23,591 nucleotides of DNA from a virus, in IMG/VR virus record IMGVR_UViG_3300029787_000339, positions 1 through 23,591 of that record; one strand, written 5' to 3'. Below are positions 1,304 through 17,410 of the stretch, piece by piece. The position numbers and the translations under genes are program-made. Position 1 is the first letter of the stretch. The number at the start of each line of letters is the position of its first letter. A model generated the notes under the pieces. The model had not been told where the DNA came from and did not search any database. It was given only the letters and a program-made list of their open reading frames with translations.

Positions 1304-2215
1304 ATGTCTACAGTAGAAAAAAATGAAGTTAGAGAAGAAAATGTTTCACGTGAAACAATTGACGATAAACCCGTAGAAGTCGAACTTCCGCTTGGTCTTG
1401 ATGAAAAGGATAAGAAATCAGAGCAAGTTACTGAAGTTAAAGAAGAAAAAAAAGAAGATGATGAAGTAACGGAATATAGTAAAAAGGTTCAAACAAGAAT
1501 CAACCAGATTACTGATCGTTATAGAAAAGAACAACGTGATAAAGAAGAAGCGGTTCGTTTAGCTAAACAGTTAAAAGATCAAAACTCAAAGCTTGAGACT
1601 CAAATACAAAACTTAGATAAGGGTTACATATCTGAATATGGAACTAGGATTGAGTCCCAACTAGCGTCTGCGTCTGAAGCTTATAAAAAGGCACTTGAAG
1701 TAAATGATACTGATGCAATGGTCAAAGCTTCACAAGCAATTGCTAAAGTTACCATTGAGCAAGAAAGACATAGAATAGCTAAACAAAGACAAGAGGATCA
1801 AGATGTTTCACGTGAAACAATTCAGACTCAACCTCCTGTTCAAACACAAGCACAACCTGCACCAGAGCCAGATCCAAAAGCTAAAGCGTGGGCAGAAAAG
1901 AACATTTGGTTTGGTGAAAACGATGAAATGACGGCACTTGCTTTTGGTGTTGATAAAAAATTACAACAAGAAGGATTTGACTTAGGAAGCGATGAGTACT
2001 ATTCTGAGTTAGATAAACGAATTAGGAAAAGATTTCCCGAGGAGTTTCAAGAAGAAAAAACGAGTAGTGTTAACAGAGTCGCACCCGCTGATAGCACGGC
2101 ATCTCGCAGTAACAGTAAGGGACGCAGGACCGTGAAGTTAACACCATCGCAAGTACAGATGGCTAAAAGACTAAATGTTCCTCTTGAAGAATATGCTAAA
2201 TATGTGAAAGAGTAG
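1304..2215 (+). CDS. capsid scaffolding protein, 303 aa
   Basis: This is a highly charged, Lys/Glu/Gln-rich protein with no hydrophobic core. An acidic N-terminus is followed by a long predicted coiled coil at about residues 56-115 (YSKKVQTRINQIT, then RLAKQLKDQNSKLETQIQNL). After that come a helical segment (SEAYKKALEVNDTDAMVKASQ), a Pro/Gln linker at about 173-193, and a compact C-terminal part with WFGENDEMTALAFGVD and a basic tail (GRRTVKLTPSQVQMAKRLNVPLEEY). This is the usual layout of a phage scaffold lying two genes before the capsid gene. The start has a good AAGGAG ribosome site. The short peptide VSRET occurs twice, at residues 14-18 and 168-172, and each copy is encoded by a perfect parS palindrome, which is unexpected in such a gene. 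The call rests on composition and position, with remembered family similarity. Confidence 0.82.
   Translation: MSTVEKNEVREENVSRETIDDKPVEVELPLGLDEKDKKSEQVTEVKEEKKEDDEVTEYSKKVQTRINQITDRYRKEQRDKEEAVRLAKQLKDQNSKLETQIQNLDKGYISEYGTRIESQLASASEAYKKALEVNDTDAMVKASQAIAKVTIEQERHRIAKQRQEDQDVSRETIQTQPPVQTQAQPAPEPDPKAKAWAEKNIWFGENDEMTALAFGVDKKLQQEGFDLGSDEYYSELDKRIRKRFPEEFQEEKTSSVNRVAPADSTASRSNSKGRRTVKLTPSQVQMAKRLNVPLEEYAKYVKE
1342..1357. promoter_or_regulatory. parS: parS-like ParB-binding site, copy 1
   Basis: The sequence TGTTTCACGTGAAACA is a perfect 16-bp palindrome. It matches the near-universal chromosomal parS consensus to which ParB-family CTPases load. It lies inside the scaffold coding sequence and encodes VSRET with flanking codon parts. 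The flanking bases are shared with copy 2, so 20 bases (1341-1360) are identical. The match is seen directly; binding by a host or phage ParB is inference. No ParA or ParB gene is visible in the window. Confidence 0.8.
1804..1819. promoter_or_regulatory. parS: parS-like ParB-binding site, copy 2
   Basis: This is a second exact copy of TGTTTCACGTGAAACA, 462 bp downstream of the first and in the same reading frame (residues 168-172). The identical stretch extends to 1803-1822. Outside these 20 bases the two neighbourhoods are unrelated in sequence. Two perfect 16-mers are far beyond chance in 23.6 kb, so selection for the DNA sequence is likely. Whether it recruits ParB is not shown by sequence alone. 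Confidence 0.8.
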
Positions 2216-3345: not shown

Positions 3346-4254
3346 ATGGCAATTTCAAGAGCACAACTCGCCAAAGAATTAGAGCCTGGCTTAAACGCTC
3401 TCTTTGGTATGGAATTCGGCAGGTATGAAAATCAACATGCTGAAATTTTTACAACTGAATCTTCAGATAGATCTTTTGAAGAAGAAGTAATGCTTTCTGG
3501 TTTTGGTGCAGCACCAGTGAAACAAGAAGGTTCTGGAGTATCATTTGATGATGCCAACGAATCATTCACTGCTCGCTATAATCATGAAACTATTGCTTTA
3601 GCTTTCTCAATCACTGAAGAAGCAGTAGAAGACAACTTGTATGACAGATTGTCTTCAAGATATACACGTGCATTAGCAAGATCAATGGCACACACAAAGC
3701 AAGTTAAGGCAGCTTCTGTTCTTAACAATGCTTTTGATAGTTCAGTTACTGGTGGTGACGGAGTTGAGTTATGTTCAACTGCACACCCAATTATAACTGG
3801 TGGTACTTTTGCTAATGAGCCATCAACAGATGCGGATCTTAACGAAACATCTTTAGAAGATGCTTTGATAAGTATTGCAGGTTTTGTTGATGAAAGAGGT
3901 CTCAAAATTGCATTGACTGGTAGAAAATTAGTTATACCACGTCAACTACAATTTGTAGCTGAAAGGCTAATGGCATCTAACTTGAGAACTGCAACAGCAG
4001 ACAATGACATTAACGCAATAAGATCAACTGGAATGCTTCCAGAGGGTTACACAGTTAATGACTTTTTGACTGACACAGATGCATTTTTCATCTTAACAGA
4101 CACTCCAAGAGGCTTTATGCATTTTGAGAGAACACCATTAGCTACTCAAATGGAAGCAGATTTTGATACTGGCAACATGAGATTCAAGGCCAGAGAAAGA
4201 TATAGTTTTGGATTTTCTGATCCAAGATGTGTCTTCGGATCAAAAGGTGCATAA
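3346..4254 (+). CDS. major capsid protein, 302 aa
   Basis: Recognised by its N-terminus (ISRAQLAKELEPGLNALFG, then RYENQHAEIF) and the block SFEEEVMLSGFGAAPVK. It also has ARYNHETIALAFSITEEA, YTRALARSMAHTKQVKAA, and a C-terminal GFMHFERTPLATQ with KARERYSFGFSDPRCVFG. I associate this with the large marine-phage capsid family related to Mu gpT-like major head proteins and found in HTVC010P-like pelagiphages. An HK97-type fold is expected from family knowledge. About 300 aa with no N-terminal delta domain fits a separately encoded scaffold. It has the strong ribosome site at 3332 and is followed by an intrinsic terminator, so it is the last gene of the head transcript. Confidence 0.88.
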   Translation: MAISRAQLAKELEPGLNALFGMEFGRYENQHAEIFTTESSDRSFEEEVMLSGFGAAPVKQEGSGVSFDDANESFTARYNHETIALAFSITEEAVEDNLYDRLSSRYTRALARSMAHTKQVKAASVLNNAFDSSVTGGDGVELCSTAHPIITGGTFANEPSTDADLNETSLEDALISIAGFVDERGLKIALTGRKLVIPRQLQFVAERLMASNLRTATADNDINAIRSTGMLPEGYTVNDFLTDTDAFFILTDTPRGFMHFERTPLATQMEADFDTGNMRFKARERYSFGFSDPRCVFGSKGA

Positions 4255-12064: not shown

Positions 12065-12519
12065 TGCCTTTCATTGGATCAAGTCCAGTTAATCAATTTG
12101 AAAATTTACCAACTAGACAAGAATTCAGTGGTGATGGTAGTACGACTACTTTTACATTAAATCAAACTGTTAATTCTGCACAAGAGATTGTTGTAAGTGT
12201 TGATGGGGTAGTGCAAGAACCAACGGGTGCTTATACTGTACCAGATGGCACAACTTTGACATTTAGTGCGGCACCTAGTTCAAATTCTGGCAATAATATT
12301 TTTGTCATGTTTTTTGGTAGGACTTTAGGAACTGTAACACCTGCAGATGAGAATAAAGGTAATTTTAAAACTGGTGGTATTTTTAGAACAAACGCTCAAA
12401 GTTTAACAACATCAACTACAATTTTAGCTACAGAAAACGCTCAAGCCACGGGCACTTTAACAGTGGCAAGTGGCGTGACACTAACTGTCAATGATGGTGG
12501 AAGGTTGGTGGTGACATGA
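12064..12519 (+). CDS. fibre-cassette head gene A (MPFIG-type), 151 aa
   Basis: It starts MPFIGSSPVNQFENL, followed by a beta domain FSGDGSTTTFTLNQTV with VVSVDGVVQEPTGAYTVPDG and NIFVMFFGRTLG. That domain occurs in many phage fibre proteins. The second half (GGIFRTNAQSLTTSTTILAT, then ATGTLTVASGVTLTVNDGG) looks like a fibre-tip beta region. It is the counterpart of the 15677 product (MPYIG start, same domain) and heads the first copy of a four-gene cassette. It ends in ATGA overlap with the first GDLA gene. It may anchor the following small fibre proteins (inference). Confidence 0.65.
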   Translation: MPFIGSSPVNQFENLPTRQEFSGDGSTTTFTLNQTVNSAQEIVVSVDGVVQEPTGAYTVPDGTTLTFSAAPSSNSGNNIFVMFFGRTLGTVTPADENKGNFKTGGIFRTNAQSLTTSTTILATENAQATGTLTVASGVTLTVNDGGRLVVT

Positions 12520-12971
12520 GTACAATCAAAGTAGATACATACCTAACTCGTGGTGGTGCATCAGAAATAGCCATTGACAAACTAAAAGGTGCATCAAGTG
12601 CAGGTTCAATGACTGTTGTTGGAGAGGGTGGTTCAACCACTACTAATATGCAACAAGGGTTGGCGAAGTGTTGGATTAATTTTCAAGGACAAGACACATT
12701 TTCAACTAGGGGTTCTTTTAATCTAGCTAGTATGACAGATAATGGAGTTGGCGATTATACAATTACAATAAATAATGACATGGGTAACAATGATTACAGT
12801 ATAACATCCACAGGATATAAACCAAGTGCTGACTTTGGTTTTATAACAAATAATAATGGAAATTATTTTACAACTGGAACTGCTAGAATTGAAACCGTTG
12901 AACATGACGGTGGTCATAAACAAACAGAATTTGACCAATCTTGCGTTACAATTCACGGAGACTTAGCATGA
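12516..12971 (+). CDS. GDLA-type small fibre protein A1, 151 aa
   Basis: First of three paralogues in cassette A. It begins MSTIKVDTYLTRGGASEIAI. The family core follows: GEGGSTTTNMQQGLAKCW, NFQGQD, GSFNLASMTDNGVGDYTITI and NNDMGNNDYSIT. It ends IHGDLA. The core QG..K.W...NG...DSFN.ASITD.GTGDYT is a domain often found once at the end of marine-phage fibres. Here it is a stand-alone gene. The last codons are part of a junction repeat containing the next gene's ribosome site. It probably forms receptor-facing trimers or hetero-fibres; the receptor is unknown. Confidence 0.68.
   Translation: MSTIKVDTYLTRGGASEIAIDKLKGASSAGSMTVVGEGGSTTTNMQQGLAKCWINFQGQDTFSTRGSFNLASMTDNGVGDYTITINNDMGNNDYSITSTGYKPSADFGFITNNNGNYFTTGTARIETVEHDGGHKQTEFDQSCVTIHGDLA
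12957..12971 (+). repeat. fibre junction repeat 1
   Basis: GGAGACTTAGCATGA codes the final GDLA and, in its ATGA, the stop of one gene and the start of the next. GGAG serves as the ribosome site for the downstream gene. It differs by one base from junctions 3 and 6. Confidence 0.75.
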
Positions 12972-13432
12972 GTACAGTAGTATTAGACACAATCACAGGC
13001 AAGTCCACTGCAACAACCATAACCATTGGCTCAACACCTGTAGTTAGTGCAAGTGCAAACTCTATGACTATTAGAGGTGAGGGTACAGCACAGACAAGTA
13101 TTCAGCAAGGGTTGGTTAAAACATGGATGTCAATGAACGGAAGTAGCACGATAGCACTTTTTGATTCTTTAAATACTGCATCAATTACAGACAACGGAAC
13201 TGGTGATTATACTCAAACTTACACTAATGCAATGGGTAACAATGATTATTCTACAGTTATATCAGTTAGGGCGCAAAGTTCTTCTTATTTAAACGGAGGA
13301 ATGATTGGTAATGATAACAGTTATGCTATGGTTACAGGTAATGTACGAGTAACAACAAACTATGCAGCAGGTTCTTCTGCTAGAGAAGATAGAGGTATAG
13401 TAAATACTCAAATAGCAGGAGACCTCGCATAA
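12968..13432 (+). CDS. GDLA-type small fibre protein A2, 154 aa
   Basis: The start is ATG 12968 in the ATGA of junction 1; an upstream ATG at 12941 in the same frame lies inside gene A1 and lacks a ribosome site. It begins MSTVVLDTITGKSTATTITI. It carries RGEGTAQTSIQQGLVKTWMS, then DSLNTASITDNGTGDYTQTY, then TNAMGNNDYSTV, and ends QIAGDLA. The core matches A1 closely while the C-terminal part (residues about 95-145) differs, as expected if the distal part meets different receptors. Confidence 0.68.
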   Translation: MSTVVLDTITGKSTATTITIGSTPVVSASANSMTIRGEGTAQTSIQQGLVKTWMSMNGSSTIALFDSLNTASITDNGTGDYTQTYTNAMGNNDYSTVISVRAQSSSYLNGGMIGNDNSYAMVTGNVRVTTNYAAGSSAREDRGIVNTQIAGDLA

Positions 13433-13436
13433 TGGC
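13418..13436 (+). repeat. fibre junction repeat 2
   Basis: GGAGACCTCGCATAATGGC, identical over 19 bases to junctions 4 and 5. It codes GDLA, stop TAA, the overlapping start ATG and the ribosome site GGAG. Confidence 0.8.
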
Positions 13437-13818
13437 AAACGGAACAATAGCATTTGATACATTATCAACAAGTGGACAGATAACAGGCACAGCTAAGTCT
13501 GTGGATACTGATTATATTGTAAAGGGTAGTGCAAAAACGACAGTAGCTGCAACTGATGCTGCCGTTTTATTTGATTCTTTAAATGTTTCAAGTGGAGTAG
13601 ACGAAGGCACAGGAGATTATAAGTATAACTTAACTGCTGCTTTTTCTGCAACAACTCTTTATTTGTGTAACGCAGGAACTTGTCTTGGAGCTTCTAATGT
13701 TGTTAGGGTAAAATCAGCAGAAGCAAGTACGATTCTTTTAGACCTCGCAACAATGAACAGTAGTTTTAGTTCAGCAGATGCTTCTCACTCAGTAGCTACA
13801 TTTGGAGACCTAGCATGA
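13432..13818 (+). CDS. GDLA-type small fibre protein A3, 128 aa
   Basis: It starts in TAATG of junction 2 with MANGTIAFDTLSTSGQITGT. The family core is more diverged: DAAVLFDSLNVSSGVDEGTG, DYKYNLTAAFSATTLYL, and it lacks the QG..K.W element, making it the most atypical of the six. It ends VATFGDLA. It is the shortest member and may correspond to the third gene of cassette B (17012, 132 aa), which has a similar late part (VTSVFATVNYAA). Two Cys (LCNAGTC) could pair. Confidence 0.62.
   Translation: MANGTIAFDTLSTSGQITGTAKSVDTDYIVKGSAKTTVAATDAAVLFDSLNVSSGVDEGTGDYKYNLTAAFSATTLYLCNAGTCLGASNVVRVKSAEASTILLDLATMNSSFSSADASHSVATFGDLA
13804..13818 (+). repeat. fibre junction repeat 3
   Basis: GGAGACCTAGCATGA, identical to junction 6, with the next base C also shared. 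It closes the first triplet of fibre genes and starts the 13815 gene through ATGA. Confidence 0.78.
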
Positions 13819-15676: not shown

Positions 15677-16135
15677 ATGCCATACATAGGTCGTTCAGAA
15701 AATTTTGGTGTAAGAAGTAGGTTCCAGTATCAAGCTACGGCTGGACAAACGAGCTTTAGTGGATCAGATGCCAACTCACTTGTACTAAGTTACACCGATA
15801 GTTTGTACATGGATGTATATCAAAACGGAATATTACTTGTACCAGGAGATGATTATACATCAACAACGGGTACAACTGTTGTATTAGTTCAAGCAGCAAG
15901 TTTAAACGATATAGTAGAAATGGTTGTCTATGATACATTTAGTGTAGCTAACTCTTATACAAAAACAGAAGCTGATACAAGATACCCATTTAAAGGTAAC
16001 AATAGTATTATAAGATTAAATGGACAGACAATCAGTGCAGATATTACAATAGATAGTGATGAGAATGGTGTAAGTGGTGGTCCTATAACACAGTCGGCAA
16101 CAGTCACTGTTAATGGATATTGGAGTATTGTATGA
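15677..16135 (+). CDS. fibre-cassette head gene B (MPYIG-type), 152 aa
   Basis: It starts MPYIGRSENFGVRSRFQYQA. The same beta domain as in the 12064 product follows (GQTSFSGSDANSLVLSY, then YMDVYQNGILLVPGDDYTST, then DIVEMVVYDTF). Then come a Y.K.EAD.RY linker (NSYTKTEADTRY) typical of fibre proteins, and RLNGQTISADITIDSDENGV near the end, closing in NGYWSIV. It leads the second four-gene cassette and overlaps the first GDLA gene by ATGA. It is nearly the same length as its counterpart (151 aa) but strongly diverged in sequence. Confidence 0.68.
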   Translation: MPYIGRSENFGVRSRFQYQATAGQTSFSGSDANSLVLSYTDSLYMDVYQNGILLVPGDDYTSTTGTTVVLVQAASLNDIVEMVVYDTFSVANSYTKTEADTRYPFKGNNSIIRLNGQTISADITIDSDENGVSGGPITQSATVTVNGYWSIV

Positions 16136-16587
16136 CAAGTCAATTAAATGTAGATACCATTGTAGATAAAGCAGGGTCAAGTGGACCTTCTTTGCCTAAT
16201 ACAACTACAATAAAAATGGGTAATACCTCTACCTATGTATCTGATGGTGGAGCAGTTACACAGAATACTGTGCAAGGATTAACTAAAGCATGGAATAATT
16301 TTAATGGTTCTGGAACAGTGGCTTACAGAGACAGTTTTAATTATTCAAGCATAACAGATGATGCTACTGGTAAATACACTTGTACTATGACTAATAATAT
16401 GAGTAATTCACATCCAACAACAACTTTTGGTTCTTTTCTAGATGCTGCTTCACACAGTTTTCCAAGATTTACTACAGGTGCATCTTATGAATCTAATACT
16501 GCAAAATTTACAGGAGCAAGTACAACATATAATGATGGCACTGACCATGCTAATATTTCTTTAGCAACTACAGGAGACCTCGCATAA
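16132..16587 (+). CDS. GDLA-type small fibre protein B1, 151 aa
   Basis: The start is ATG 16132 in an ATGA overlap; a TTG at 16120 in frame is rejected. It begins MTSQLNVDTIVDKAGSSGPS. The core has VTQNTVQGLTKAWNNFNGSG, then TVAYRDSFNYSSITDDATGK, then YTCTMTNNMSNSHP. It ends ATTGDLA. Same length as A1. The distal third (SFLDAASHSFPRFTTGASYE) differs from all paralogues and is the likely binding part. Confidence 0.7.
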   Translation: MTSQLNVDTIVDKAGSSGPSLPNTTTIKMGNTSTYVSDGGAVTQNTVQGLTKAWNNFNGSGTVAYRDSFNYSSITDDATGKYTCTMTNNMSNSHPTTTFGSFLDAASHSFPRFTTGASYESNTAKFTGASTTYNDGTDHANISLATTGDLA

Positions 16588-16591
16588 TGGC
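16573..16591 (+). repeat. fibre junction repeat 4
   Basis: GGAGACCTCGCATAATGGC, identical to junctions 2 and 5; with junction 5 the identity extends four more bases into the next gene (TAGT), 23 in all. It codes GDLA, stop, start and ribosome site. Confidence 0.8.
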
Positions 16592-17012
16592 TAGTGAACT
16601 TAAAGTAGATAAATTTACAGGTGTAACCACAGCAGGTTCTATACTTGTTACAGGTGAAGGCAATAGTACAACAACTAATCTGCAACAAGGGTTGGTGAAG
16701 GCATTTTGTTCTTATGATTTTGACACAGACCAAGTAAGGTCTTCTTTTAATATAGGTAGTGTAACAGACAGAGGAACTGGTTCTTTGTATGGCAATTTTA
16801 CAAATAATATGGGAAGTGCTACTGGCTATACCTGTACTTCAGGTACAACACCTGTTGACCCTGGTTCAATGGCAAATGACGACACAAATAGATACTCACT
16901 TATTTCAGCAGATACTGCCGCTAGGTATTCACAAAACAATGTAGCACCAAGCACAGGTGCTGTTATTAATGATGAAGCTGTGCAGGGAATAATAGTGGGA
17001 GACCTCGCATAA
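16587..17012 (+). CDS. GDLA-type small fibre protein B2, 141 aa
   Basis: It starts in TAATG of junction 4 with MASELKVDKFTGVTTAGSIL. The core reads TGEGNSTTTNLQQGLVKAFC, then SSFNIGSVTDRGTGSLYGNF, then TNNMGSATGYTC. It ends IIVGDLA. The GEG.STTTN.QQGL block is shared with A1, so B2 may be closer to A1 than to its positional partner A2. Three Cys are present in the body. A receptor-binding fibre subunit is inferred. Confidence 0.7.
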   Translation: MASELKVDKFTGVTTAGSILVTGEGNSTTTNLQQGLVKAFCSYDFDTDQVRSSFNIGSVTDRGTGSLYGNFTNNMGSATGYTCTSGTTPVDPGSMANDDTNRYSLISADTAARYSQNNVAPSTGAVINDEAVQGIIVGDLA

Positions 17013-17016
17013 TGGC
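16998..17016 (+). repeat. fibre junction repeat 5
   Basis: GGAGACCTCGCATAATGGC, identical to junctions 2 and 4. It lies at the boundary between fibre genes B2 and B3, in the same reading frame and role as the others. Confidence 0.8.
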
Positions 17017-17410
17017 TAGTATATTAAGAGTAAACACATTAACAGATGCAAGTAGTAATAATTCTGTGCCAATGGCTACTGTTAATCAGGGAACAGCTAA
17101 ATCATGGGCTGATTTTACAATGGCATCAACACCTTCTGCTGATGATTCTTTCAATTTAGCAAGTATTACAGATGTTGCAACAGGTAAAATGGGTATAGTA
17201 GTTACAAGTGTTTTTGCAACTGTCAATTATGCAGCACAAGGGCATAGTAATGGAACAACAGGTAATACTTTTGCAGCAGAAACTATGGTTGGTTTAAAAC
17301 AAAGTCAAAATGTAACTACAAGCACTTCAACTTATGAATTTTCTGCATATGCAAGTGATTATGTTGATGCAATTCATAATTATACGCTTACACACGGAGA
17401 CCTAGCATGA
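17012..17410 (+). CDS. GDLA-type small fibre protein B3, 132 aa
   Basis: It starts in TAATG of junction 5 with MASILRVNTLTDASSNNSVP. The core is ATVNQGTAKSWADFTMASTP, then DDSFNLASITDVATGKMGIV, then VFATVNYAAQGHSNG. It ends LTHGDLA. It closes the second triplet, and its final junction is identical to that of the first triplet. It is the shortest of triplet B, as A3 is of triplet A. Confidence 0.7.
   Translation: MASILRVNTLTDASSNNSVPMATVNQGTAKSWADFTMASTPSADDSFNLASITDVATGKMGIVVTSVFATVNYAAQGHSNGTTGNTFAAETMVGLKQSQNVTTSTSTYEFSAYASDYVDAIHNYTLTHGDLA
17396..17410 (+). repeat. fibre junction repeat 6
   Basis: GGAGACCTAGCATGA, identical to junction 3. It starts the large fibre gene 17407 by ATGA, as junction 3 starts the chaperone-like gene 13815. 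Confidence 0.78.

Follow-up and report, generated by a model that had tools for sequence, protein, structure and literature searches.

Consensus chromosomal parS sites in a putative scaffold gene of a marine phage group with no detected ParB, and their occurrence in other phages

Introduction

ParABS is usually treated as a system of the host or of plasmids. Why does a virulent marine phage carry two perfect copies of a chromosomal centromere site, parS, within one late gene, and which protein would read them? The question is raised by a 23,591-nt stretch of viral DNA (the window, meaning the whole stretch that was analysed). The features needed in the following sections are listed here.

812-1294, + strand: GroES-like co-chaperonin gene (phrog_3188); the gene may in fact start downstream of 812
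1304-2215, + strand: putative scaffold gene holding both sites (phrog_28737, a function-unknown family; in the relatives examined it precedes the capsid gene)
1342-1357, strand (.): parS site 1, TGTTTCACGTGAAACA, codons (N)VSRET, near the N-terminus of ORF 1304-2215
1804-1819, strand (.): parS site 2, TGTTTCACGTGAAACA, codons (D)VSRET, in the Q/P-rich linker of ORF 1304-2215
3346-4254, + strand: major capsid gene (phrog_371, major head protein)

The Sites and the Gene That Carries Them

A first-pass annotation of this DNA described the two 16-mers as perfect, identical to the consensus chromosomal parS, and surrounded by identical 20-base cores. All of this was reproduced. The motif scan of the window returned both copies with 0 mismatches, and each matches the 16-bp palindromic consensus TGTTNCACGTGNAACA at 16/16 positions; the cores at 1341-1360 and 1803-1822 both read ATGTTTCACGTGAAACAATT. 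VSRET is the reading of both sites in the frame of ORF 1304-2215, as had been stated, and base-composition arithmetic again gives ~1e-5 for the expected number of exact copies in the window. A scan of the whole 23,591 nt revealed no third site even with up to three mismatches allowed, and the two-site outcome occurred in 0 of 100 dinucleotide shuffles of the window. These shuffles, together with the control palindromes of equal composition described below, rule out a chance origin of the sites. The Noc-binding site (NBS), a palindrome of the ATTTCCCGGGAAAT type, was ruled out as their identity, the window sites differing from it at the specificity positions (PMC7383237).

The annotation had also placed the sites in a scaffold gene. 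The location inside ORF 1304-2215 holds; the scaffold role is suggested by the position between the GroES-like and capsid genes and by a coiled-coil look, the product having no Pfam match and phrog_28737 no assigned function. Elsewhere in the window, tandem small genes (~130-160 aa) at 12516-13818 and 16120-17410 have in common a motif like SxTDxGTGDYT, and may form a repeated family of putative tail-associated proteins.

Conservation in Close Relatives

The search of relatives' scaffold genes for the 16-mer, proposed with the first-pass annotation, was carried out on 33 related loci in IMG/VR. Site 1 is kept 16/16 in 27/27 sequences with an intact N-terminus (window clade and sister clade, the window included), and site 2 is kept 16/16 in 19 sequences, being missing as one block from the sister clade (~72% identity). 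Both are absent in the six most distant loci (<=51% identity). Six related records carry a further exact site 6-8 kb upstream, shortly behind terL, where it opens a short ORF (MNVSRET...); one of the related records (G015) has an extra site another 3.1 kb upstream. Every copy in the 20 related records is perfect, with no versions bearing one or two mismatches. The sites of this phage group thus form a cluster of up to about three within ~8-9 kb, and judging from the relatives, a third clustered site would lie upstream of the window.

Selection on DNA Rather Than on Peptide

A codon alignment of 20 distinct genes contains 56 peptide-conserved five-codon windows, and VSRET alone among them has zero synonymous change. 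Calculated codon by codon, the probability of zero synonymous change given the conserved residues is ~0.003 for site 1 and ~0.017 for site 2; 33% of same-residue codons differ between the two clades. The codon before VSRET alternates between AAT and GAT (Asn/Asp), which always gives the first T of the palindrome. The first-pass annotation had named VSRET encoded by varied codons as the result that would speak against selection on DNA. In the plus frames of 194 related loci VSRET was found 52 times, 51 of them as the exact 16-mer; the sole other copy lies inside a GroES-like gene. The peptide is entirely absent from L333, a locus 78% identical to L088 (a T7-type scaffold gene discussed below), and locus L470 retains the palindrome as TGTTCCACGTGGAACA with the peptide altered to DVPRGT. 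In view of the altered peptide under a retained palindrome in L470, and of the 51/52 occurrences of VSRET that are the 16-mer, selection on DNA is favored over selection on peptide; as read from these alignments, it is the DNA, not the peptide, that is conserved at the sites. Selection for VSRET itself is ruled out by the lack of synonymous change and the 51 exact copies.

Recurrence in Other Scaffold Genes

Within the same family, the distantly related L042 (38% identity) carries an exact site in the linker, where the window has site 2. Unrelated T7-type scaffold genes (PF05396; L088, L146, and the relative L351) carry exact sites too, close to the N-terminus. The site was found in only 2/80 IMG/VR relatives of each scaffold family, the window's and PF05396. 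Because most relatives in both families are without one, sites must have been gained and lost, and disordered N-termini and linkers probably do no more than tolerate them. No such site is present in HTVC023P, 023Pt_psg01, CRP-901, and DSL-LC04 of the wider family; as most members of that family are without it, the site is dispensable for infection in general. A separate observation concerns a short frame, VKN(D/G)(M/I)NVSRETLP, which is repeated in five contigs (L061, L079, L135, L145, L153) with the same exact site. They probably represent another phage group with conserved parS.

ParB in the Phage Group

ParB_N (PF02195) was detected in none of the 20 related records, which include a near-complete relative of 53.8 kb (G010), and no ParA, ParB, or integrase is among the Pfam and PHROG matches listed for the 47 ORFs of that relative. 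Its gene content comprises terminase subunits, portal, capsid, DNA polymerase A, helicases, lysis genes, and a methylase. The earlier remark that no parA or parB is visible is therefore borne out, and the accompanying suggestion of a phage ParB elsewhere in the genome finds no support, none being detected in the 20 relatives or among the matches listed for G010. A phage-encoded ParB as reader of the sites is made improbable by the same records, and own parA and parB genes, the mark of a phage-plasmid cassette, were not found in them. With no parB turning up in the records searched for this group, the reader of the sites would have to be host ParB.

Placement near a phage replication origin was also considered and set aside: the cumulative GC skew of G010 merely mirrors gene orientation and is uninformative. 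A HlyC-like acyltransferase domain protein, a C5 DNA methylase, and a Mom-like DNA modification protein were noted in the near-complete relative (L172 592-1023, L174 3585-5445).

The Candidate Host

SAR11 genomes carry the same sequence inside rsmG, where it reads VSRET in the same frame, in the gene order mnmG-rsmG-parA-parB. The site is present with at most one mismatch in 59/118 SAR11-family genomes, exactly once in 56 of these 59. The other 59 of the 118 are without parS at this threshold, which may mean that these genomes are incomplete, that their sites have diverged, or that the system was lost. The ParB of SAR11, the candidate host of the window phage, matches the structure of C. crescentus ParB (6t1f) at ~1e-56 and is canonical, retaining the equivalents of R173 and G201; these residues are absolutely conserved in parS-type ParB (PMC7383237).

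The kinship with HTVC023P and HTVC027P, the low GC, and the related capsids make SAR11 the likely but unproven host group. Assignment through infected single cells was attempted: related capsids occur in 2/397 SAR11 assemblies, neither is closer than HTVC023P, and both are without sites, which leaves the host unproven. One SAR11-family assembly contains two different contigs of the phage family (G090:C1 and G090:C5), with capsids 64% identical to that of the window.

Breadth across Phages

The 16-mer occurs in at least 120 IMG/VR stretches, and two control palindromes of equal composition occur in 1 and 7 stretches in all of IMG/VR. At 120 of these loci (with crude gene calls), 53 of 146 sites are intergenic versus 10.6 expected by length, a five-fold enrichment. 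No rsmG, mnmG, or parA homologs lie beside the sites at these loci, on the same crude calls, and there is one weak ParB; misbinned host DNA was on these grounds rejected as the source of the 120 listed matches. An exception is G067 (the L121 record, 116,662 bp), which bears 24 TGTTTCACGTGGAACA/TGTTTCACGTGAAACA-type sites and has the look of an actinobacterial origin region entered as viral. Long IMG/VR records mostly have 1-6 sites each, and ParB_N scores above cut-off in 3/45 of them.

Among 50,697 phage records, 315 match the extended palindrome exactly over 16-18 bp, and none matches the control palindrome. They include phages of Listeria, Microbacterium, Arthrobacter, Gordonia, Bacillus, Lactobacillus, Enterococcus, Ruegeria, and Butyrivibrio, as well as microviruses; a larger plasmid collection yielded 18 matches. 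Beyond the ten most frequent organism names listed for the 315, none accounts for more than six records. All 12 named phage genomes that were checked whole have 1-4 sites (<=2 mismatches), often clustered, and ParB_N lies above cut-off in one of the 12. Phage vB_BcoS-136 has four sites inside 1 kb, and Ruegeria pomeroyi phage DSS3P8 has three exact ones and no ParB_N. The relative HTVC027P, whose isolation host is SAR11 HTCC1062, carries one site, mismatched at a single end position, and Bacillus subtilis phage Goe1 (phi29-like) has an exact site and a one-mismatch site; neither has ParB_N. Among other phages, sites turn up in replication, lysis, and tail regions or between genes. Exact parS was also seen in microviruses of ~5 kb, namely phi-CA82, Spiroplasma phage 4, and gut microviruses (HQ264138 3904-3919; M17988 692-709), with a single site in phi-CA82.

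It appears rather probable from this distribution that clusters of host-type parS without ParB constitute a widespread phage strategy, which would place phage genomes under the centromere machinery of the host, and that it extends over phages of marine Alphaproteobacteria, Bacillota, and Actinomycetota, even to 5-kb microviruses.

Relation to Known Systems

The phage sites resemble the chromosomal parS of ParABS (rsmG-parA-parB of SAR11; Caulobacter, Bacillus) in the identical 16 bp and in clustering, and the SAR11 site also in the NVSRET reading inside a gene. They differ in lying away from a bacterial origin and in that no parA or parB was found in the records searched. Phage-plasmid ParABS cassettes (P1, N15, plasmid prophages) likewise have a parS-type cis site; in contrast to the window's group, where none was found, they encode their own ParA and ParB.

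The closest precedent is phi29, in which genome entrapment in spores is said to involve host Spo0J (ParB), reportedly from work by Meijer et al. in EMBO J in 2005. By analogy, the window phage may be a virulent phage without ParB that relies on host ParB, and the phi29-like Goe1 has the same pattern as the window group, host-type parS without ParB_N. The window phage differs in being marine, in having a likely non-sporulating host, and in carrying its sites in the scaffold gene. The combination of host-type parS and no ParB holds for the window group across 20 related records. Our literature search found nothing on phage parS read by host ParB; the occurrence of host-type parS in ParB-less phages is apparently unreported in its breadth, phi29 being the known precedent.

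Proposed Mode of Action and Alternatives

We consider it about an even chance that the phage parS loads host ParB and nucleates a partition-like complex on phage DNA. The window sites would be functional parS, selected as DNA, in a group of about three clustered sites. On loading there, host ParB would form closed CTP clamps that slide along the DNA between terL and the capsid gene; the covered region would resemble the partition complex of an origin, which host ParA (and SMC) could position or segregate. The phage genome would then be treated like the host origin in a slow or stalled infection, and the host chromosome would lose ParB to it, as a side effect or an additional advantage. Binding, loading, and spreading of host ParB on the phage sites, and positioning or segregation as the benefit to the phage, are each predicted from sequence. 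The partition-like complex is preferred on two grounds: sites usually occur singly or in tight clusters and not in large arrays, and phi29 offers a precedent. Against it, it is not obvious why a lytic podovirus-like phage should need segregation, and most members of the wider family are siteless, including 78/80 IMG/VR relatives.

The main rival is titration, in which the sites act as a decoy that draws host ParB (with ParA, SMC, and division regulators) off the origin and so blocks segregation and division. Site-bearing SAR11 chromosomes mostly have one site and phages of the clade up to three, multiplied by phage copy number, and any permissive sequence would serve as position. A decoy would, however, be expected to have more sites, and many phages have a single one, phi-CA82 among them, while sites cluster instead of multiplying; we regard titration as possible but doubtful. 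The location in late genes in the window and its close relatives would also suit regulation, with host ParB spreading from the sites to silence or time the late head genes, and long-range silencing by a ParB-family clamp is known from KorB of plasmid RK2 (PMC11790492). Late-gene silencing is made unlikely by the sites of other phages, which sit in unrelated replication, lysis, tail, and intergenic regions, so that there is no common gene to control.

Use of the palindrome by another factor, phage-encoded or terminase-like, for replication, packaging, or regulation would make the parS match a coincidence. One further site does lie shortly downstream of terL and the phage has HTH proteins; yet a coincidental 16/16 consensus match in unrelated phage families is implausible, and palindromes of equal composition are rare or absent, so we give this reading little credence. 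Chance or a protein-level constraint on VSRET, which is conserved within the clade, is highly improbable: the peptide comes and goes with the 16-mer, without synonymous change, the intergenic enrichment elsewhere is strong, and the 51 exact copies among 52 contradict it.

Concluding Remarks

The proposed loading of host ParB and formation of a partition-like complex can be examined directly, as complete site-bearing isolates are available for tractable hosts (DSS3P8, Goe1) and their sites lend themselves to synonymous change. Perfect host centromere sites, kept by strong selection on DNA in virulent phages without ParB, imply an interplay between phages and chromosome segregation that reaches far beyond phi29.
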